In this document: piece after piece, positions 11,003 to 41,429 of the stretch
Layout of the letters: each line of letters begins with the position of its first letter
Numbering within the stretch: the first letter of the stretch is position 1
Assembly (NCBI GenBank): GCA_003349885.1
Contig: QFXC01000013.1
Coordinates: 62,001 to 126,000 of the forward strand
Length of the DNA: 64,000 nt
Direction: 5' to 3'
Source: an endosymbiont of Galathealinum brachiosum
Lineage (GTDB): Bacteria > Pseudomonadota > Gammaproteobacteria > SZUA-229
Program-made: the position numbers and the translations under genes
Notes under the pieces: model-generated
Told to the model about the DNA's origin: nothing
What the model saw: only the letters and a program-made list of their open reading frames with translations
Databases searched by the model: none

Positions 11003-11035
11003 GTGCGTGAAATAAAATTATTAGCTGGTAAATTG

Positions 11036-11195
11036 CACTGTTCAGCCACATCTTCTCCGCTCTGTCACCTGTTGTGATGCCATCAAAAGTTTTACGGAGC
11101 GACTTACTACACTGTCAGCTCCTGATGGTATGGGTTAAGGGGACAGGGCTTAAAAAGCAAGACTTATCCCCGATGGAGATGTGCCATGACAGTGT
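11036..11195 (+). repeat. Structured repeat, copy 1
   Basis: First of four related elements in 5.7 kb. The outermost arms CACTGTT/GACAGTG and CACATCT/AGATGTG pair, and CTGTCACC faces GGGGACAG with one mismatch. An inner hairpin is ACTGTCAG-CTC-CTGATGGT, allowing G-U pairs. The long CGGGGA-type 5' arm seen in copies 2 and 4 is missing. It lies between the 64-aa gene's terminator and the 3' end of the gene at 11207-11785. Confidence 0.7.
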
Positions 11196-11206
11196 AAGTT
11201 AGTTTC

Positions 11207-11785
11207 TTACCCCAGCTTCGCTGTACTTCGTCCATCCACCATTTCGTATTTAGATTTCTTCAGATTTTCTATCATCTCCGGCACTTCAATCTCGATAATC
11301 TGGTCTGTAATCCATTTATTATCTCTGGCACCCATTTCAGCACTGATAAAATCACCAAAATCACGCTTATATTGAAAACCCGGCATTTCTTTATCATCTA
11401 TCCATGAACACTCGGCATAAGCATTCAGACGTTTATTCAGTGTATCTATAAAGTCTTTTTTATAATCGACATCTCTACCAAGTAAATCCTCACAGTTTTC
11501 CTGAAAGGTTTTTGAGAGTTTAATAGCATATTTAGCAACAAACTCCTGACGCTCCTCAGCACTCATCTGTCCTGCAACTAAACGATCAGTAACAGACACT
11601 AAAAATGCCAGTGCTTCACGTATCACATCCAGTCTTTGCTTATGTGTATCAGTCTGAAAATTTTCATTCTCAAGGTTCAATACTAGTGCCGCAGCAATAC
11701 GCCATGAAATAAAGGCCATGGTATTGGCTTTTTCATCAACAGACACGGTGCGTTCTTTATCGTGCCACTTGGTTCTCATTCTCAT
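11207..11785 (-). CDS. Unknown cytoplasmic protein in the sulfur island
   Basis: This is a 192-residue soluble, helical protein without signal peptide, membrane segment or recognised domain. It is divergent from the Sfum_1244-like gene. Its promoter (11829-11869) carries the same box and spacing as the dsr promoter. That suggests co-regulation with sulfur oxidation, which is an inference from sequence pattern. The 3' end abuts structured repeat copy 1 by 11 bases. Confidence 0.65.
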   Translation of the reverse strand: MRMRTKWHDKERTVSVDEKANTMAFISWRIAAALVLNLENENFQTDTHKQRLDVIREALAFLVSVTDRLVAGQMSAEERQEFVAKYAIKLSKTFQENCEDLLGRDVDYKKDFIDTLNKRLNAYAECSWIDDKEMPGFQYKRDFGDFISAEMGARDNKWITDQIIEIEVPEMIENLKKSKYEMVDGRSTAKLG

Positions 11786-11828
11786 GGTGTGTACTCTTAA
11801 TGCTTACGGAAGATATTAATGATTAAAT

Positions 11829-11869
11829 AGTATACTATTTAAGTCAGGAATTATGCTATCCCTAATAGG
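11829..11869 (-). promoter_or_regulatory. Divergent promoter with shared box
   Basis: On the minus strand CCTATTAGGGATA is followed after 22 bases by TATACT, upstream of the gene at 11207-11785. The -10 lies inside a perfect 16-base palindrome AAATAGTATACTATTT (11825-11840). The same bases therefore give a TATACT -10 on the plus strand, about 37 bases before the Sfum_1244-like start. One palindrome may serve both directions. Confidence 0.6.
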
Positions 11870-11872
11870 TAT

Positions 11873-12904
11873 ATGAAAACAATTGCCCAACAAATTCAGC
11901 AAAACTGTCATATTTCGGATGCTCAATATGCAGGCAACTACACCCTGTGTATCTACTTACTAAAAATGCGTGAATTTTATCGCTGGGAATCACAATTACC
12001 CTTCTCCCAGAAACTTGATAATAATGATATTGGTGACTGGCTCACTCAACGAGAAGGGCTTTGGGATGAAATTGATGAACAACCGCTTACAAACCTGTTA
12101 ATTGATAATGAAAAATTTAACTGCTTTGAAAGTGACAAAATAAATAAACAACTGGAAAAGCATAAACTGGTTTATAGCGGCGGTTATGGTTTATATGGAA
12201 AACCGGTTTTCTTTTTAGGGGAGTTACTACATAAGGAAGCGCATGATGATTACACCCTTTATATTTCCGGTAAAGAACTAGCCAGAGATTTAGCTGCACC
12301 GCCTGGCATGGCTCAGGATAAAACAGTTTATATAAGGCGTGAATCATTACGCAGATTTATCTGGGAAAAGTTTGAAGAATCTCACTGGCACAAACAGGAA
12401 AACCCCTTATCAAGAGCCCTTGCCTGTTATGATTTCAACAATCAGCCAGAATATGCTTTAGAAAAAATGACTGATAATGAAGTAAATACGGTTTTACAGC
12501 ATGAAATAGGTGAGATTCAGGCGGGTAAAATTTTAGGTGACCAATGGGAAGAAATGTTAATTAATCTGCCCCACTCTCAGGCAGAAATTATGGCCCGGGC
12601 AGTACGTGATAATATTGCTGATATGCTCTCTACCCTGCCAAAATTACTGGATAAAAATGAAGCAGCACAAATACATTTTTATTTTGCCAATATGAGTGCC
12701 ATGCGTAAAATGATTTTCCCGGGACTACCCGATGCTTATAAAAGCTGGCTTGTAAAAGGTGATTCAAAAGAATTTAAAAACATGTTTTCTGTTGCCAGTA
12801 GTCACTGGATCAACATGGCAGAACAGATGCTTGGCATTTACAAACAGCACGGTGATAAAGCCCATACTAAAATAGAAACATTGATTAATAACAATTACCT
12901 TTAA
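11873..12904 (+). CDS. Sfum_1244-family protein
   Basis: This 343-residue soluble protein matches my memory of the Sfum_1244 family. The matches are an N-terminal Asn-Cys-His-Ile-Ser-Asp-Ala, the block Leu-Lys-Met-Arg-Glu-Phe-Tyr-Arg-Trp-Glu near residue 30, Gly-Lys-Glu-Leu-Ala-Arg-Asp-Leu-Ala-Ala-Pro-Pro near 140 and His-Glu-Ile-Gly-Glu near 210. The family's function is not known to me. It occurs here in a sulfur-oxidation island. Its start lies within the shared-box region, and a GGTATATG sequence gives a weak ribosome site. Confidence 0.7.
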   Translation: MKTIAQQIQQNCHISDAQYAGNYTLCIYLLKMREFYRWESQLPFSQKLDNNDIGDWLTQREGLWDEIDEQPLTNLLIDNEKFNCFESDKINKQLEKHKLVYSGGYGLYGKPVFFLGELLHKEAHDDYTLYISGKELARDLAAPPGMAQDKTVYIRRESLRRFIWEKFEESHWHKQENPLSRALACYDFNNQPEYALEKMTDNEVNTVLQHEIGEIQAGKILGDQWEEMLINLPHSQAEIMARAVRDNIADMLSTLPKLLDKNEAAQIHFYFANMSAMRKMIFPGLPDAYKSWLVKGDSKEFKNMFSVASSHWINMAEQMLGIYKQHGDKAHTKIETLINNNYL

Positions 12905-13039
12905 TCAATAACAGATAAAATCGAATAACTTACCTACCACCCTGAACCTGATGAAGGGTCTGGTGTAATGATTTATTACTAAAGAGCACGAAATCAGAAC
13001 CTTCGGTTTCGCTCGGAATGACAAAGAAGAAACTTAACT

Positions 13040-13648
13040 ATGTACCACGACTCTACACAAAGAAAACCACTCGTTAACTTTAAAGAAGTTAAAGAAAACA
13101 GCTTTATTTTTATCAATGAGAATGCCCTTCCTAAAGATATATGCAGGGAAATGATTCGTCGGTTTGAAAGTGATAAAGAAGCGCAATATCGAGGGCGTAT
13201 AGGTCAGGATTTTAAAGAAGATCATAATATAAAAAAATCAACTGATTTAGCTATTCATGCACATGAGCACTGGCGCGATATCTCACAGGAATTGATGCGC
13301 TCTTTAGGCCAGTCTTTACGTGAATTCTCAGATGCTTTTCCCTTTTTCAAAGGCCCGTTTAAAGACGTTGGTTACAATATGCAGCGTACATCTGAAGGCG
13401 AGTATTATAACTGGCACATTGATGGTGGCAGCCATGAATTTGCTGATAGACAGTTAGTCGCATTATGGTACCTGAATGATGTTGAAGGCCCGGGTGGCGC
13501 TACGGAATTTATGTTTCAGGATGTTGCAGTACAACCCAAAGAAGGTGCTTTAGTATTATTTCCTACATTCTGGACACATGAACACAGAAACTCACAATTA
13601 GAAAAAGGCGTGAAATATGTAGCCACAACCTGGTTATCTTTTGCTTAA
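13040..13648 (+). CDS. 2OG-Fe(II) dioxygenase-like protein
   Basis: This 202-residue protein has the double-stranded beta-helix metal triad His126-x-Asp128 (in Trp-His-Ile-Asp-Gly-Gly) and His180 (in Phe-Trp-Thr-His). A basic residue follows near 192, as needed to hold 2-oxoglutarate. This fits the prolyl-hydroxylase-like Fe(II) oxygenases; the substrate is unknown. The 135-base gap before it has a small hairpin (ACCCT/AGGGT) but no clear promoter. A GNAT gene follows after 16 bases, probably co-transcribed. Confidence 0.8.
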   Translation: MYHDSTQRKPLVNFKEVKENSFIFINENALPKDICREMIRRFESDKEAQYRGRIGQDFKEDHNIKKSTDLAIHAHEHWRDISQELMRSLGQSLREFSDAFPFFKGPFKDVGYNMQRTSEGEYYNWHIDGGSHEFADRQLVALWYLNDVEGPGGATEFMFQDVAVQPKEGALVLFPTFWTHEHRNSQLEKGVKYVATTWLSFA

Positions 13649-13664
13649 ATTTTAAGTTCGTATT

Positions 13665-14093
13665 TTGAAAATAACATCACCAAAAACTGAAGAAGAATTT
13701 CGACAATACTATAATTTACGCTGGCGTATTCTACGTAAACCCTGGAACCAGCCTGAAGGAAGCGAACGAGATAAATCAGATACTGATTGTTATCATATTA
13801 TCGCCATTGATAATAAAATTATTTATGGCGTTGCTCGTTTAGAATTCCCGACAAATACAAGTGCACAACTTCGTTATATGGCTGTAGATGATTCATATCA
13901 GGGCCAGGGTATAGGTCGCCATATCGTTACACACATGGAACAGTATGCTAAGAATAACAATATGGATAAACTGTTTTTGAATGCCAGAGAAAATGCCGTG
14001 GGTTTTTATGAAAAACTAGGGTATAAAATAACTGACAAAACTTATATTTTATTTGACTCGATTCAGCATTATAAAATGATAAAAAAATTATAA
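13665..14093 (+). CDS. GNAT-family N-acetyltransferase
   Basis: This 142-residue GNAT enzyme has the acetyl-CoA loop Gln-Gly-Gln-Gly-Ile-Gly near residues 84-89 and the C-terminal Asn-Ala-Arg-Glu-Asn-Ala-Val-Gly-Phe-Tyr-Glu-Lys-Leu-Gly-Tyr block. The start codon appears to be TTG with a poor ribosome site, so translation may be coupled to the dioxygenase 16 bases upstream. Substrate unknown. Confidence 0.82.
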   Translation: MKITSPKTEEEFRQYYNLRWRILRKPWNQPEGSERDKSDTDCYHIIAIDNKIIYGVARLEFPTNTSAQLRYMAVDDSYQGQGIGRHIVTHMEQYAKNNNMDKLFLNARENAVGFYEKLGYKITDKTYILFDSIQHYKMIKKL

Positions 14094-14147
14094 ATATATT
14101 TTCACGAAGAAAAAATTCACAGTTTAATTTTCTAGTGATAGTACATG

Positions 14148-14323
14148 CTGTTAAGGAACATATCCCTCGGGGAAAGAGCATCTTTCCCGCTCTGTCCCCT
14201 GTTGTGATGCCATCAAGCGTTTTGCGGAGTCGGCTCACTACACTGTCAGTGCATAGTGGTATGGATTAAGGGGACAGGGCGCAGAAAACGCGACCTTTCC
14301 CCGAGGGAGATGTGCTTTAACAG
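14148..14323 (+). repeat. Structured repeat, copy 2
   Basis: This is the most complete copy. The outermost CTGTTAA/TTAACAG pair, then CCCTCGGGGAAAG pairs perfectly with CTTTCCCCGAGGG (13 bp). CTGTCCCC pairs with GGGGACAG, TGATG with CATCA, and CACTA with TAGTG. GCG-CAGAAAA-CGC forms a small 3' hairpin. It lies between convergent gene ends (GNAT and the 14365-14685 gene). Confidence 0.75.
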
Positions 14324-14364
14324 GGCACAGATATTAAAAAATAAACCTGATTAAATTATATATT

Positions 14365-14685
14365 TTACACTTCAATATCTATATCACTTATTTCAAAATC
14401 TGAGCTTACTGTTACTCTTTTTAAATCAGGAAACTTACTTAAAATATAAGAAGCCTGTAAATAAAAATCACGAATTTTTTCCTGGTGTATCGCACTTACA
14501 ACATTATTAGCTGTAAATTGACAGCGCTGCTCTAAATCTGGAGTATCAATCCAGTAACGACCTAACTGTATACCCTTATCAAACTCTGCATCCATATCGT
14601 TATGAACATTTTGCAACTCCTGCATAAGTTCATCTTTCACTTCCAGTGTATAAGACTCTTCATCGATGGTAATATTAAAGTTCAT
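14365..14685 (-). CDS. Small unknown cytoplasmic protein
   Basis: This is a 106-residue acidic protein, beginning Met-Asn-Phe-Asn-Ile-Thr-Ile-Asp-Glu-Glu. I chose the ATG at 14685 because the longer frame (to 14811) would run into the start of the divergent hydroxylase gene and lacks a ribosome site. One cysteine near residue 55. No domain recognised. Confidence 0.6.
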   Translation of the reverse strand: MNFNITIDEESYTLEVKDELMQELQNVHNDMDAEFDKGIQLGRYWIDTPDLEQRCQFTANNVVSAIHQEKIRDFYLQASYILSKFPDLKRVTVSSDFEISDIDIEV

Positions 14686-14772
14686 AAAGTTAACTCTGCT
14701 CAATGTCGAAATTTTATTTGATGCTATTATACCAGAGTAAAACACCTCTAAATACATTAAAAAGAGAAGATT

Positions 14773-15447
14773 ATGCTTGTTATTGTTCCTGAAGTTTTGA
14801 ATACAGATCAATTAAAAAAAGTGCGGGACCTTTTACAAAACGCTGATTATGTTGATGGAAGATTAAGTGCGGGTAAAACAGCACGTAAAGTTAAAAAAAA
14901 TCACGAATTAGCTGCAGACTCAAAACTACATGGTCAGTTAAATAATATTGTAATGAATTCACTATATAACCACCCTGTTTATCAGGCGGCTGTATTACCG
15001 CATCGATTAGCAACTCCTTTCTATGCACGTTACGAACCGGGTGAAACTTATGGTCAGCATGTGGATGACCCCATTATGGGACCAATGCAGGGGCGTTACC
15101 GTACAGATGTTTCTACAACCATTTTTATAAATGATCCTGAAGACTATGAAGGTGGAGAAACAGTTATACAAACCCAGGCAGGTGAACAACGAATCAAATT
15201 AGCCGCTGGCAGCGCTGTAACCTATCCTTCTGGTTCACTGCACTATGTAGCTGAAGTAACCAAAGGAACCCGTCTGGTGGCTGTTACATGGGCGCAAAGT
15301 TTAATAAGAGAAGCTGAAAAACGTGAATTGCTGTTCAATTTGCATAAAACACGTGAAGCGTTACAGAAAAAATACCCGGATGATGAAGAAGTGGTGAAAG
15401 TTGATCATACGTATATTAATTTGATGCGTATGTGGGCTGAGATTTAG
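14773..15447 (+). CDS. PKHD-type Fe(II)/2OG hydroxylase (YbiX/PiuC family)
   Basis: This 224-residue enzyme matches the PKHD-type hydroxylases. Its metal ligands are His96-x-Asp98 (Gln-His-Val-Asp-Asp) and His157 (Gly-Ser-Leu-His-Tyr), with Arg167 as the 2-oxoglutarate anchor. Length and the Tyr-Glu-Gly-Gly-Glu-Thr block agree with the family. Elsewhere these proteins are often tied to iron supply. An AGAGAAG ribosome site precedes the ATG. Here it lies among sulfur-oxidation genes with no siderophore receptor nearby. Confidence 0.9.
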   Translation: MLVIVPEVLNTDQLKKVRDLLQNADYVDGRLSAGKTARKVKKNHELAADSKLHGQLNNIVMNSLYNHPVYQAAVLPHRLATPFYARYEPGETYGQHVDDPIMGPMQGRYRTDVSTTIFINDPEDYEGGETVIQTQAGEQRIKLAAGSAVTYPSGSLHYVAEVTKGTRLVAVTWAQSLIREAEKRELLFNLHKTREALQKKYPDDEEVVKVDHTYINLMRMWAEI

Positions 15448-15470
15448 TCGTACATTTGGAAATAATTAGC

Positions 15471-15626
15471 CTGTCATGGAACATCTTTCCCGCTCTATCC
15501 CCTGTTGTGATGCCATCAAGAGCTTTACGAAGTCAACTCACTACACTGTCAGTACATAGTGGTATAGGTTAAGGGAACAGGGCGCAGAAAACGCGACCTT
15601 TCCCCGATGGAGAAGAGCCTAAACAG
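15471..15626 (+). repeat. Structured repeat, copy 3
   Basis: This copy shares the core CATCTTTCCCGCTCTATCCC through GATGCCATCA, the CACTA/TAGTG hairpin and the GCGCAGAAAACGCGACC block with copy 2. As in copy 1, the long 5' outer arm is shortened. CCCTGTT/AACAGGG pairs perfectly and replaces the inner stem. It sits between convergent genes, 23 bases after the hydroxylase stop codon. Confidence 0.72.
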
Positions 15627-15664
15627 TACAACCTACCAAAACATAAATCACTTTATTTTTCCCA

Positions 15665-15696
15665 CAAAAAAGGCCGGAACTAGTCCGGCCTTTTTA
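15665..15696. terminator. Bidirectional rho-independent terminator
   Basis: AAAAAGGCCGGA and TCCGGCCTTTTT form a perfect 12-bp arm with a short ACTAG-region loop. It lies 21 bases after the stop of the minus-strand gene 15717-15920 and resembles the terminator at 10961-11002. Confidence 0.9.
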
Positions 15697-15716
15697 ATCA
15701 ACATTAAGATTAGATC

Positions 15717-15920
15717 TTAACGATGAGAACCTTTATCAGCATGAGCTGCATCAACAAGAGCCTGTGACTTCTCGTTGAAAGATTCACGGTAACCGTCAAG
15801 TACTGAACCAGACTCTGGTGTGAAATATTTCTCAGCACTGTAACCGTTCTTGTGCTCATCTTCGATGAATTTCTTCTGCATATCGATCAGTTCTTTGATC
15901 ATTGCATCTCTATCAGCCAT
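15717..15920 (-). CDS. Small conserved-looking protein, 67 aa
   Basis: This 67-residue charged, helical protein has no cysteines, signal peptide or membrane segment. GAGGG lies seven bases before the ATG. It has its own promoter with the shared box (15974-16015) and a strong terminator, the same arrangement as the 64-aa gene at 10744. Both are probably well expressed together with dsr. No recognised domain. Confidence 0.7.
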   Translation of the reverse strand: MADRDAMIKELIDMQKKFIEDEHKNGYSAEKYFTPESGSVLDGYRESFNEKSQALVDAAHADKGSHR

Positions 15921-15973
15921 GGTATTACCCTCATGAATTCTTTTGTTTGCGTATTAACCGCATCGTGTGACGG

Positions 15974-16015
15974 ATTATAGACGCATTTATAGTAAAAAGC
16001 CTCTACCCCATTAGG
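15974..16015 (-). promoter_or_regulatory. Putative promoter with shared box
   Basis: On the minus strand CCTAATGGGGTA (16004-16015) is followed after 24 bases by a consensus -10 TATAAT (15974-15979). No -35 hexamer is visible, as in the other members of this set. It drives the 67-aa gene. Confidence 0.6.
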
Positions 16016-16046
16016 AATAGAGACTATATTTTTTGCAAAACAGCTA

Positions 16047-16370
16047 TTAATAGCCGCCTTTACGAGTCGACATTGGGCAACCACCGATTTTCAGGCCTTG
16101 CTTAGATGGCATACCAGGAAACATTTCATACATTTCCTTAGACTTAACCTTACGACCCCAGATTTTGCCCATAGCTTTCATAATGCCACGCTCATTTGGC
16201 TCATCACCACCAACCACTTCTTCACGAACGTACTTAACTACATCCCAGTGCTCTTGTGTTGGATCGATTTCTTCTTCAGCGAAAAGCTCAGCTGCGATTT
16301 CTTCGTTCCAGTCGTTAATGTCAACTAGGTAACCTTTTTCAGTTCTTTCAACAGAATCAAGTGCTGCCAT
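16047..16370 (-). CDS. DsrC-like protein lacking both C-terminal cysteines
   Basis: This 107-residue member of the DsrC/TusE/RspA superfamily has the Tyr-Leu-Val-Asp ... Trp ... Glu-His-Trp and Tyr-Glu-Met-Phe-Pro-Gly blocks. DsrC carries two redox cysteines at the C-terminus. Here the first position is Leu93 and the tail ends Arg-Lys-Gly-Gly-Tyr. The only cysteine, Cys98, lies where DsrC has a leucine. It therefore cannot act as a normal trisulfide carrier. The Cys-less RspA group has been proposed to be regulatory. It has its own shared-box promoter. Confidence 0.85.
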   Translation of the reverse strand: MAALDSVERTEKGYLVDINDWNEEIAAELFAEEEIDPTQEHWDVVKYVREEVVGGDEPNERGIMKAMGKIWGRKVKSKEMYEMFPGMPSKQGLKIGGCPMSTRKGGY

Positions 16371-16423
16371 GATATTGCCTCAATTTTAATAAATTCGTTA
16401 AATGTGTAAAATTATGGGGTCGT

Positions 16424-16465
16424 ACTTTAAGACAAAATAATGAAAAAGTCGATTATCCCATTAGA
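16424..16465 (-). promoter_or_regulatory. Putative promoter with shared box
   Basis: On the minus strand TCTAATGGGATA (16454-16465) is followed after 24 bases by TAAAGT (16424-16429), about 54 bases before the DsrC-like start codon. A GATATATATC palindrome overlaps the upstream side of the box. The rest of 16371-16716 is taken by structured repeat copy 4. Confidence 0.5.
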
Positions 16466-16533
16466 TATATATCAGGATAAGTTGTGTTAATACCGAAAAC
16501 AACAAATGGCTATGAACTGTAAGATTTTACACC

Positions 16534-16702
16534 GTTAAGGCTTATCCATCGGGGAGAGAGCATCTTTCCCGCTCTGCCCCCTGTTTTTAGACCACTAGAA
16601 GTTTTCAGAGTCTGTTCATGACACTATCAGCTCTTGGTGGTATCAATAAGGGGGACAGGGCGCAAAAAGCTGCGACCTTTCCCCGATGGTTATGCTCCTA
16701 AG
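16534..16702 (+). repeat. Structured repeat, copy 4
   Basis: CCATCGGGGAGAG pairs with CTTTCCCCGATGG. Compared with copy 2, a C-G pair has become A-T, so both arms changed together. The inner hairpin ACTATCA/TGGTGGT holds with G-U pairs although its sequence differs from the other copies. CCCTGT/ACAGGG is retained. It starts 15 bases downstream of the stop codon of the Cas6-like gene, counting along that gene's strand. Confidence 0.72.
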
Positions 16703-16716
16703 CAATAAATCGTTTG

Positions 16717-17427
16717 TTACGTTCCATCAAAATGCTGCATTTCCGACATATCACCTACTGCTTTTATGCCCTTATGCGCTAAAAACAGACCAAATCCAGC
16801 TTTACGCCCCTCTCCAATCCCTTCCACCTGAAGCGTTACTGCATCCTCCGGGTCCAGATCAGCCACCATGATACTCATCGTTTTAACTGGGCCAGCTGTC
16901 ATGTTGAACGTATGCCCCATACCGCAAAGCGCCTTGGTTAAATTAATACCCATGGCTTTCATTTCTGTCGCCACACGACTCACAAACTCATCTTCAGTTT
17001 CTTCATTACCTACAATGACATAGCGACAAAACAAAGTTCCTAATGGCGAAAATGGTTTTACCTGATAATCACCAAAAGTAACATCATGACCATTTAACTG
17101 AATCGTTTTACCAATTAATTCATCCATATCCGCATGGCGCACTTTCGGTACACGAATCAACATTTTTGAACGTTTTGAAAGATATATACACGCATCATCA
17201 CAATCATCTTCTGGACGATTCCAGCCATTACCTGTAGTTGCCCCATGAATCATATGCACACCCGCATGAGGGTCATCATCTATCCAGGGCAGTATTCTCA
17301 AAATTTCATCTGAGAGCTGTTGCGCATGATCCAGAGGCACCTGCTTACTAATTAATTTAAACGATAGATCAGCTACCGTATCCGGCACTGAAAAAGGCGC
17401 TGCTTTTTTATCTTCTTGCCATAACAT
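16717..17427 (-). CDS. Orphan Cas6/Cmx6-like RAMP protein
   Basis: This 236-residue protein matches the layout of type I-MYXAN Cas6 (Cmx6): Val-Pro-Leu-Asp-His-Ala near residue 30, Gly-Val-His-Met-Ile-His-Gly-Ala near 56, Leu-Ile-Arg-Val-Pro near 89, then a C-terminal glycine loop Gly-Ile-Gly-Glu-Gly-Arg-Lys-Ala-Gly-Phe-Gly near 205-215. Cas6 proteins cut CRISPR repeat RNA. No CRISPR array or other cas gene is present, so its RNA target, if any, is elsewhere. A 63-aa gene lies 29 bases upstream and a structured repeat lies just downstream. Similarity is from recalled family pattern. Confidence 0.7.
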   Translation of the reverse strand: MLWQEDKKAAPFSVPDTVADLSFKLISKQVPLDHAQQLSDEILRILPWIDDDPHAGVHMIHGATTGNGWNRPEDDCDDACIYLSKRSKMLIRVPKVRHADMDELIGKTIQLNGHDVTFGDYQVKPFSPLGTLFCRYVIVGNEETEDEFVSRVATEMKAMGINLTKALCGMGHTFNMTAGPVKTMSIMVADLDPEDAVTLQVEGIGEGRKAGFGLFLAHKGIKAVGDMSEMQHFDGT

Positions 17428-19153: not shown

Positions 19154-20404
19154 ATGGCAGCAAAGAAGATTTATCCAACACCAATGCTTGATGTACTTGA
19201 AGAAGGTCCTTGGCCCTCATTCATTACAGGTATTAAAAACTTACGTGATAACCACGAAAACCAGTTCATCGCTGATGTAACTAGCTCACTTTTAGGTCAG
19301 CTTGAGCATTCATATGAAACTCGTAAGGGTTACTGGAAAGGCGGCACAGTTTCTGTATTCGGTTACGGCGGTGGTGTTATTCCTCGTTTCTCTGAAGTAG
19401 CGGATGCTTTCCCTGAATCTAAAGAGTTCCATACCATTCGTGTACAGCCTACTCCAGGTAACTACTACACAACTGATATGCTGAACAAGCTTGGCGATAG
19501 CTGGGAAAAGAATGGCTCAGGCCTTCAAACTTTCCACGGTCAGACGGGTAACATCATGTTCATCGGTACAACAACTGATGGCACACAGAAATTCTTTGAT
19601 GATATCAACGACTACGGTTGGGATATGGGTGGTGCGGGTCCTTGTGTACGTACTGCTATGTCATGTGTTGGTGCAGCTCGTTGTGAAATGTCTAACTGTA
19701 ATGAGCATGCTGCTCAGCGTTGGTTGGTTAACAACTTTACAGATGACGTTCATCGCCCAGCTCTTCCTTACAAATTTAAATTCAAAATCTCTGGTTGCCC
19801 TAACGATTGCCAAAATGCTATCGAACGTGCTGACTTTGCTGTTATTGGTACATGGCGCGATGATATGCGTGTTGACCAAGGCGAATTCAAAAACTACGTT
19901 GAAGCTAAAGGCCGTCAATACATCATTGATAACGTAATTACTCGTTGCCCAACTCAGGCACTTGCACTTAACGATGACGACACAATTGCTGTTGATAATC
20001 GTAACTGTGTACGTTGCATGCATTGCATCAACGTTATGCCTAAGGCACTTCGCCCTGGTACTGACAAGGGTGTAACTATCCTTATCGGTGGTAAGCGTAC
20101 ACTGAAAATCGGTGACCTTATGGGTACAGTTGTTGTTCCATTTAGAAAGCTTGATACTCGTGAAGATTACGAAGAAATGGTTGAGCTTGCTGAAGAAATC
20201 ATTGATTTCTGGGCAGAAAATGGTCTTGAGCACGAACGTTGTGGTGAAATGATCGAGCGTATCGGTCTAGTTAACTTCCTTGAAGGTATCGACGTTGAAG
20301 TTGATCCGAATATGGTTAGCTCTACACGTCAAAGCTCTTACGTTCGTATGGACGGATGGGACGACGAAGCTATCAAATGGTTTGAGCGTAAAGCTGAAGC
20401 ATAA
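19154..20404 (+). CDS. dsrA: Reverse-type dissimilatory sulfite reductase, alpha subunit
   Basis: This 416-residue catalytic subunit of the cytoplasmic alpha2beta2 sirohaem enzyme oxidises sulfur to sulfite in this lineage. Sirohaem-coupled [4Fe-4S] ligands are Cys171, Cys177, Cys215 and Cys219. A second ferredoxin domain has Cys285-xx-Cys288-xx-Cys291 plus Cys265. The start has a good GGAG site. It heads the dsr operon, and an attenuator-like hairpin (20425-20453) separates it from dsrB. The gene order and the presence of dsrL and dsrEFH indicate the oxidative enzyme rather than sulfate reduction. Confidence 0.98.
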   Translation: MAAKKIYPTPMLDVLEEGPWPSFITGIKNLRDNHENQFIADVTSSLLGQLEHSYETRKGYWKGGTVSVFGYGGGVIPRFSEVADAFPESKEFHTIRVQPTPGNYYTTDMLNKLGDSWEKNGSGLQTFHGQTGNIMFIGTTTDGTQKFFDDINDYGWDMGGAGPCVRTAMSCVGAARCEMSNCNEHAAQRWLVNNFTDDVHRPALPYKFKFKISGCPNDCQNAIERADFAVIGTWRDDMRVDQGEFKNYVEAKGRQYIIDNVITRCPTQALALNDDDTIAVDNRNCVRCMHCINVMPKALRPGTDKGVTILIGGKRTLKIGDLMGTVVVPFRKLDTREDYEEMVELAEEIIDFWAENGLEHERCGEMIERIGLVNFLEGIDVEVDPNMVSSTRQSSYVRMDGWDDEAIKWFERKAEA

Positions 20405-40334: not shown

Positions 40335-41285
40335 ATGAAATATTTAAATAAATCCATTAAATCGTTACTGGCTTGTCTGGTGATTCTAGCCCTGGGTTCT
40401 TCAACTGCTCTTGCAGCAAAAGTAAGAGTCAGTTTGTCGGCGGCACCTTCAACCATTGATACAGGTCAGTCAACAACACTGAGCTGGAGTGCAACCAGTG
40501 CAACCAGTTGTTCCGCAAGCTGGACAAGCAGTACTGCAACAAGCGGCTCGCAGTCTGTTAGCCCGAGTACAACTACAACTTATAGTATTAACTGTACAGA
40601 TGGTCGTAGAAGTACAGGCGAGAGTGTAACAGTGACAGTGAATGTACCGCCACCAACAGCCAGTCTATCGGCCTCACCTTCAACCATTGATGAGGGGCAG
40701 TCAGCAACATTAAACTGGAGCTCAACCGATGCCAGTAGTTGTTCAGCAAGCTGGACAAGCAGTACCGCAACTAGTGGTTCAGAATCTGTTAGCCCGGTTG
40801 CAACCACAACTTATAACATCAGCTGTGATGGTGATGGTGGTAGTGCAAGCAACAGCGTAGATGTGACAGTAAATACGGCTGGCGGTGGTTATGATCTTGT
40901 TGGAGATTATATTGGTGGAACCCATGATACACAGGTCTACGATACCAGTTTCGCAGTAGAATTCAGCTATTCCTGTTTAACTGGTGGCTGTCATGAAAAT
41001 GATCAGCAGTTAGTGGATGAATATGCAGCAGCCAATATGACTCATACCATGGTCAAGTGTAATGCCTGTCATGGAACACATACGGCCGATACAGTGGGGC
41101 TTGAAAAGCCTAATCTTACAGGTCATTACCCAGGTATCGGAGCGACTGGTTATATAGTTGGCACCGATCGTTGCAAAACGTGTCACAGCAACCAGCATAC
41201 CGGAGGAAGAGCGAGTAAAAATGACTGTAAGAGCTGTCATACACCACATGTGTTTGCGCCACCCAATGGTGGTAGCAGATGGTAG
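40335..41285 (+). CDS. Exported Ig-domain multihaem cytochrome c
   Basis: This 316-residue protein has a signal peptide (1-28) and two similar Ig-like beta domains of about 72 residues, each with Ser-Cys-Ser-Ala-Ser-Trp and two cysteines. A C-terminal haem domain has three CxxCH sites (Cys-Asn-Ala-Cys-His, Cys-Lys-Thr-Cys-His, Cys-Lys-Ser-Cys-His) and one C-x4-CH (Cys-Leu-Thr-Gly-Gly-Cys-His), so three or four haems. It is very likely the electron donor or acceptor of the preceding molybdoenzyme. GGAGGAGA six bases upstream supports ATG 40335 over 40329. Confidence 0.85.
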   Translation: MKYLNKSIKSLLACLVILALGSSTALAAKVRVSLSAAPSTIDTGQSTTLSWSATSATSCSASWTSSTATSGSQSVSPSTTTTYSINCTDGRRSTGESVTVTVNVPPPTASLSASPSTIDEGQSATLNWSSTDASSCSASWTSSTATSGSESVSPVATTTYNISCDGDGGSASNSVDVTVNTAGGGYDLVGDYIGGTHDTQVYDTSFAVEFSYSCLTGGCHENDQQLVDEYAAANMTHTMVKCNACHGTHTADTVGLEKPNLTGHYPGIGATGYIVGTDRCKTCHSNQHTGGRASKNDCKSCHTPHVFAPPNGGSRW

Positions 41286-41391
41286 AAACAACGCAGACTC
41301 CAGCTTCCAAAGTTAGATAAAGAAGTCTGGTAAAAAAGGATTTAAATAATAACTACCGGTATTTAAAGGAAGCCACAGGTATTTATTTTAA

Positions 41392-41429
41392 CCGGGGATA
41401 GAACGCCAATATGTGTGATCTATCCCCGG
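41392..41429. terminator. Long hairpin after the molybdoenzyme operon
   Basis: CCGGGGATAGA and TCTATCCCCGG form a perfect 11-bp stem around a 16-base loop. There is no clear U-tract on either strand. It lies between convergent genes. Confidence 0.55.

Follow-up and report, generated by a model that had tools for sequence, protein, structure and literature searches.

Which kind of element is the structured repeat that occurs four times near the dsr genes of a sulfur-oxidising bacterium? The stretch of DNA analysed here, 64,000 nucleotides in length and hereafter called the window (G000:C13:62001-126000), comes from a genome of 3.77 Mb (G000) and includes the dsr locus, with DsrC at 16047 and DsrA at 19154. 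An earlier note on this DNA had proposed that the repeat could be a noncoding RNA family, a non-autonomous mobile element or a HEARO/omega-RNA-like relic. On the analysis reported below, the repeats are probably mobile DNA of a palindromic, non-autonomous type, related to the REPINs but larger, that a TIRYT/RAYT HUH transposase would mobilise in trans; this reading draws on the dispersal of the copies, an empty site, covariation within the hairpins, inversion of the centre, single-hairpin derivatives and a preference for gene 3' ends.

The four copies, with their common core, were recovered where the earlier note had placed them, both by a repeat search and by a covariance model (98-147 bits). 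The features of the window are as follows, where z compares folding with that of shuffled sequences.

11018-11200, plus strand: copy 1, the whole insertion, left hairpin truncated (empty site in G001, 2 nt versus 183; covariance model, 98 bits at 11025; z -4.4)
14148-14323, plus strand: copy 2, complete element (covariance model, 147 bits at 14167; z -9.5)
14148-14168, plus strand: copy 2, left strand of the outer stem, pairing with 14303-14323
14169-14199, plus strand: copy 2, left hairpin GGGGAAAGAGC...GCTCTGTCCCC (sequence; covariation)
14200-14269, plus strand: copy 2, centre, with GATGCCATCAAG...TAGTGGTATG (alignment)
14270-14302, plus strand: copy 2, right hairpin GGGGACAGGGCGC...GCGACCTTTCCCC (sequence; covariation)
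14303-14323, plus strand: copy 2, right strand of the outer stem (covariation and folding analyses)
15471-15627, plus strand: copy 3, left hairpin without its 5' half, right hairpin intact at 15573-15605 (covariance model, 105 bits at 15470; folding, z -0.3)
16534-16704, plus strand: copy 4, complete, with its left hairpin at 16551-16581 and its right hairpin at 16651-16684 (covariance model, 125 bits at 16549; z -6.6)
16717-17427, minus strand: orphan Cas6 of the type I-MYXAN kind (PF09559, 2e-51; TIGR02807 above cut-off)
41326-41429, no strand assigned: possible fifth, degenerate single-hairpin relative CCGGGGATAGAACG...GATCTATCCCCGG, weak (covariance model, E 7e-4)

The architecture is complete in copies 2 and 4 alone, and the nested helices that had been described for all four hold for these two; copy 1 folds more weakly and copy 3 no better than shuffled sequence, because the 5' half of the left hairpin has been lost. 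The difference between copies 2 and 4 in the outer helix (CCCTCGG/CCGAGGG versus CCATCGG/CCGATGG) is real, and across 51 aligned copies the variable position forms A-U in 20 and C-G in 13, the other 18 being unpaired there. The placement at gene 3' ends was also correctly described, since copies 1-3 lie between convergent genes and copy 4 follows the 3' end of the cas6-like gene and is upstream of dsrC.

Several neighbours in the window are worth recording in their own right. The orphan Cas6 gene adjoins dsrC in the dsr region, and no CRISPR array, sought as closely spaced direct repeats, was found within the window. All 14 genera of the bacterial family have members of this Cas6 family, almost never in more than one copy (35 of 54 genomes), a pattern suggestive of a domesticated RNA endonuclease; a link between Cas6 and the repeat was considered and is unsupported, as the former occurs in all 14 genera and the latter in three. 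Two 2OG-Fe(II) oxygenase genes (13040-13648 and 14773-15447, the latter with a PKHD-type hydroxylase C-terminal domain) lie near the dsr genes, with a GNAT gene and copy 2 between them. Further downstream, positions 40424-40874 hold two units of ~231 bp in tandem with 75% identity, and the hairpin at 41326-41429, CCGGGGATAGAACGCCAATATGTGTGATCTATCCCCGG, resembles one arm of the repeat; it may represent a degenerate solo relative or, alternatively, an ordinary terminator.

The full element is ~178 bp long and lacks coding capacity. Two ~33-nt GGGG...CCCC hairpins and a ~75-nt centre are enclosed by an outer inverted stem that is imperfect, and the consensus of the aligned copies reads TTACcCTGTTcAGGCACATCTCC[AC]TC - GGGGAAAG...CTGTCCCC - TGTTGTGATGCCATCAAGAGTTTTACGGAGTCGACTCACTACACTGTCAGCTCYTGGTGGTATGGGTTAA - GGGGACAGGGC...CTTTCCCC - GA[TG]GGAGATGTGCCTgAACAGgGTAA. 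The two GGGG...CCCC units are inverted with respect to each other, and each forms a local hairpin. A second type of centre, GAGACCACCAAGAGCTGTACGGAGTCGTTCATCGC...GATCGGAATCACCACATGGGAC, is found in G003 and in some copies of G000. At L064/L090 and at L034, L047, L050 and L073, the inverted repeat extends ~25-50 bp further outward (TTTTACAGATTTATAAACTGGTGAG), so these elements may sit inside, or run into, a second, larger palindrome.

Comparison of the 51 copies revealed which of these parts are conserved as structure. Pairing is retained in 92% and 96% of the cells of the two local hairpins; the left one has 35 double-changed cells against 10.6 in shuffled alignments and the right one 42 against 10.3, levels reached in none of 1000 shuffles in either case, and the excess persists when G000 copies alone are used. 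Covariation is modest in the outer stem (62 double-changed cells versus 48 shuffled; 24 versus 12 in its innermost 8 bp) and absent in the central stem (4 versus 4.8). Pairing across the arms showed no excess of double changes either (14 versus 13 and 2 versus 5 shuffled), and long-range arm-to-arm pairing was therefore rejected as a conserved structure. Both hairpins carry GGGGACAG, which fits the motif GGGGWSAS, on the strand facing the centre. The exact motif occurs on that strand in 34 of 51 left and 41 of 51 right arms, most of the others having one mismatch, and on the opposite strand in only 4 and 7 of 51, respectively; the hairpin strand opposite GGGGACAG drifts, often leaving a single mismatch. 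Taken together, the hairpin-specific covariation and the retention of GGGGACAG indicate that the two hairpins have been shaped independently of each other, either by selection or by a copying process with hairpin repair.

The four window copies are local members of a family dispersed over the whole genome. A DNA search with copy 2 matched 40 distinct places in G000, and searches with the end pattern and the covariance model added at least 17 more, giving at least about 55 copies in total; these copy numbers are lower bounds, and the covariance-model run over the family scored at most 60 candidates per genome. The end pattern matched 34 times in G000 and never in a reversed control. Within the genus, each of the five genomes contains the family; outside it, matches were found in only two of 49 genomes tested, belonging to two of 13 other genera; G061 has one locus and G063 three compact loci of 87 nt. 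Among GTDB species genomes, exact core matches were limited to the gammaproteobacterial MAGs N3S-Bin_1 and N1D-Bin_4, and searches of IMG/VR and of PLSDB plasmids for the repeat returned none.

Orthologous sites in the genus record how the element changes. The site of copy 1 is empty in G001, with 2 nt in place of 183 nt and both flanks aligning, as would be expected of the mobile element that the earlier note had listed among its options, an option further supported by the tens of dispersed copies, the inverted ends and the zero coding capacity. No target duplication is visible at this site, the only clean empty one; the sites L102/L169 and L068/L042 are not clean. Many other sites are common to several species and are thus old. 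A comparison of strands showed the centre to be inverted in 5 of 14 orthologous pairs at common sites; at the site of copy 3, the G001 element has the opposite orientation, and in L066/L094 and L073/L091 the outer ends are fixed and the inversion affects nothing but the sequence between the arms, its breakpoints falling within the arms. Single-hairpin forms with an intact outer stem occur at L240, at L245 and at L089 of G001, where G004 has a full copy; they appear to have arisen by deletion between the GGGGA direct repeats that start both hairpins. A search for an autonomous element with matching ends found none, and 18 further G000 loci are full, partial or single-hairpin copies.

These data also bear on whether the repeat is a conventional MITE, i.e. 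a DDE transposon that has undergone internal deletion, with its transposase sites in the outer inverted repeats CCCTGTTcAGGCACATCTCC and with hairpins that are incidental. The outer ends are indeed inverted and conserved in most copies, the outer stem shows weak covariation in its innermost part, and the size of the element is within the MITE range. However, the sole clean empty site lacks a visible target-site duplication, none of the 34 ends found in G000 was seen to bound a longer coding element or a transposase gene, and it is the internal hairpins, not the termini, that are under the strongest constraint; we therefore consider a conventional MITE unlikely.

The position of the repeats relative to genes raises a second alternative. 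A simple ORF rule was used to call genes, and 73 copies have one on either side; 33 of them lie between convergent, 37 between codirectional and 3 between divergent genes, compared with 19%, 60% and 21% of intergenic bases, respectively (p 4e-9). The nearest stop codon is mostly a few tens of bases away, and this distribution at gene ends matches that published for REPs. The repeats are likely to be transcribed within mRNA 3' ends, and they might be exapted host elements whose transcribed hairpins protect mRNA 3' ends or block convergent read-through and are kept by selection. Apart from the marked preference for gene 3' ends and convergent pairs, and the compensatory changes that maintain the hairpins, this alternative could draw on a comparison of G002 and G004, in which the elements at common sites are 96-99% identical and their 60-bp flanks 74-96% in three of five pairs; orthologues more conserved than their flanks could argue for a host function and against mobility. 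In the other two pairs, on the other hand, the elements are 86% identical and the flanks no worse, and in this small sample the conservation may reflect selection, recent conversion between copies, or chance. Moreover, element orientation at codirectional sites is only mildly biased (24 versus 13), the left hairpin is broken in copies 1 and 3, the sites occupied change from one species to another, and the purging of insertions from promoters would give the same positional bias. A host 3'-end element, which would in any case be compatible with a mobile origin, is thus rather improbable as the explanation of the family. A combination of the two is also conceivable, if doubtful: a once-mobile TIRYT-type double hairpin may have been domesticated and kept across species at gene 3' ends as a two-way insulator of transcript ends, its centre free to invert and its hairpins held by compensatory mutation.

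A noncoding RNA family, the first proposal of the earlier note, is not needed to account for the repeat. The two hairpins are independent and inverted, strand bias relative to genes is weak, and the centre inverts in place, so REP-type DNA hairpins fit better than a strand-specific RNA. As for a HEARO/omega-RNA or another noncoding RNA relic of an IS200/IS605 element, a structured, dispersed sequence of ~150-180 nt in a genome with Y1 transposases is what it would predict, but it is very improbable, as no Rfam family scored above its threshold over the region when gathering and relaxed thresholds were used (the better weak matches being ordinary terminator hairpins), HEARO was absent even at E up to 5, the arms are inverted repeats of each other, and the centre lacks covariation and flips in place.

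Mobilisation by a TIRYT/RAYT transposase, the preferred reading, directs attention to the transposases of these bacteria. GGGGWSAS is the published motif of the inverted repeats around TnpA_REP/TIRYT transposase genes (PMC3733652; PMC6006769), and TIRYT is TnpA_REP subclass 2.1, in which the partner transposase has a C-terminal HTH (PMC6006769). Y1/HUH transposases (PF01797) are encoded by all five genomes of the genus, in G000 at C8:220433-221122 and in G001 on C11, and by most genomes of the bacterial family. They score 70-83 bits against the NCBIfam model of REP-associated tyrosine transposases (NF047646, cut-off 80), and Pfam found Y1_Tnp alone in four of them, a divergent HTH being possible. 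Within the bacterial family, inverted GGGG[AT]CAGA repeats often bracket Y1_Tnp/RAYT genes (0.48/kb versus 0.036/kb), and GGGG[AT]CAG inverted repeats bracket Y1 genes in several genera (L180, L182, L187, L190, L193, L194, L197 and L201), those of L197 being perfect hairpins. One RAYT gene of G001 has hairpins resembling the arms immediately before its start (E about 1e-9). In a RAYT gene region of that genome (L146, G001:C11, 367-2700), parts of the sequence are duplicated in tandem and there are several GGGGTCAGAGCACAATT ends along with four hairpins of the arm type, which looks as though a transposase unit was rearranged in place more than once. Several observations speak against this reading. 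The sole intact RAYT gene of G000 is bracketed by the variant GTGCCAGAGCACAATT instead of GGGGACAG and has no element nearby, and no transposase gene bracketed by the exact arms of the repeat was found in that genome. The mere presence of a RAYT is uninformative as a predictor of the repeat, as RAYTs occur in nearly all genera, including repeat-free ones. The motif points inward from the terminus in RAYT units; in the repeat it is on the strand facing the centre. We infer the link between the repeat and TIRYT/RAYT from the motif, the architecture and the one G001 locus, all read from sequence.

A possible mechanism would run as follows. When the element becomes single-stranded, e.g. in the lagging-strand template, its two hairpins could serve as recognition sites for a Y1/HUH transposase of the TnpA_REP/TIRYT type acting in trans; this enzyme would cut the element and rejoin it elsewhere. 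Insertions would be retained chiefly downstream of stop codons, the positions at which they are least harmful; recombination between the inverted arms would flip the centre, and the short direct repeats (GGGGA) could lead to the loss of one hairpin together with the centre.

TIRYT/RAYT transposases are widespread, and their relation to dispersed repeats is poorly known. Here the arms can be compared over tens of copies in several species, which shows that each hairpin is conserved, not a terminal inverted repeat, and orthologous sites provide intact, flipped and single-hairpin forms as defined substrates for testing the movement of REPIN-like units by such transposases. For genome annotation, the family accounts for structured gaps that could otherwise be mistaken for noncoding RNAs.

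Among known systems, ERIC/RU-type repeats and the Thiomargarita MITEs (PMC2759123, PMC4853749) resemble the repeat, by description, in being small, intergenic, palindromic and non-autonomous, the latter also in occurring in sulfur bacteria; unlike the repeat, however, the Thiomargarita MITEs end in TATA or carry a 10-bp direct repeat. REPINs (Bertels and Rainey 2011, PMC3116915) are closer, as their mobile unit is likewise a pair of inverted hairpin-forming repeats that is extragenic, undergoes compensatory changes and gives rise to single-repeat derivatives. The repeat differs from them in its longer spacer, its extra outer stem and its far fewer copies; furthermore, GTAG is found within 8 nt of the hairpin foot in none of the 51 copies, the feet being CATC/CCTC outside and AACA/TTAA inside, so membership of the GTAG-REP superfamily was rejected. 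The TIRs of TIRtrons (Di Nocera et al. 2013, PMC3733652) have GGGGWSAS and the inverted arrangement in common with the repeat; some are self-complementary and found as dimers, and Y1 transposases bracketed by the same motif exist in the bacterial family of the host. In contrast to these TIRs, the repeat has its motif on the centre-facing strand, no transposase gene with its exact arms was found, and it is a ~178-bp unit that combines two hairpins with a long conserved centre and an outer stem. The repeats are thus a new genus-level palindromic family of the REPIN/TIRYT kind, for which we infer the transposase.
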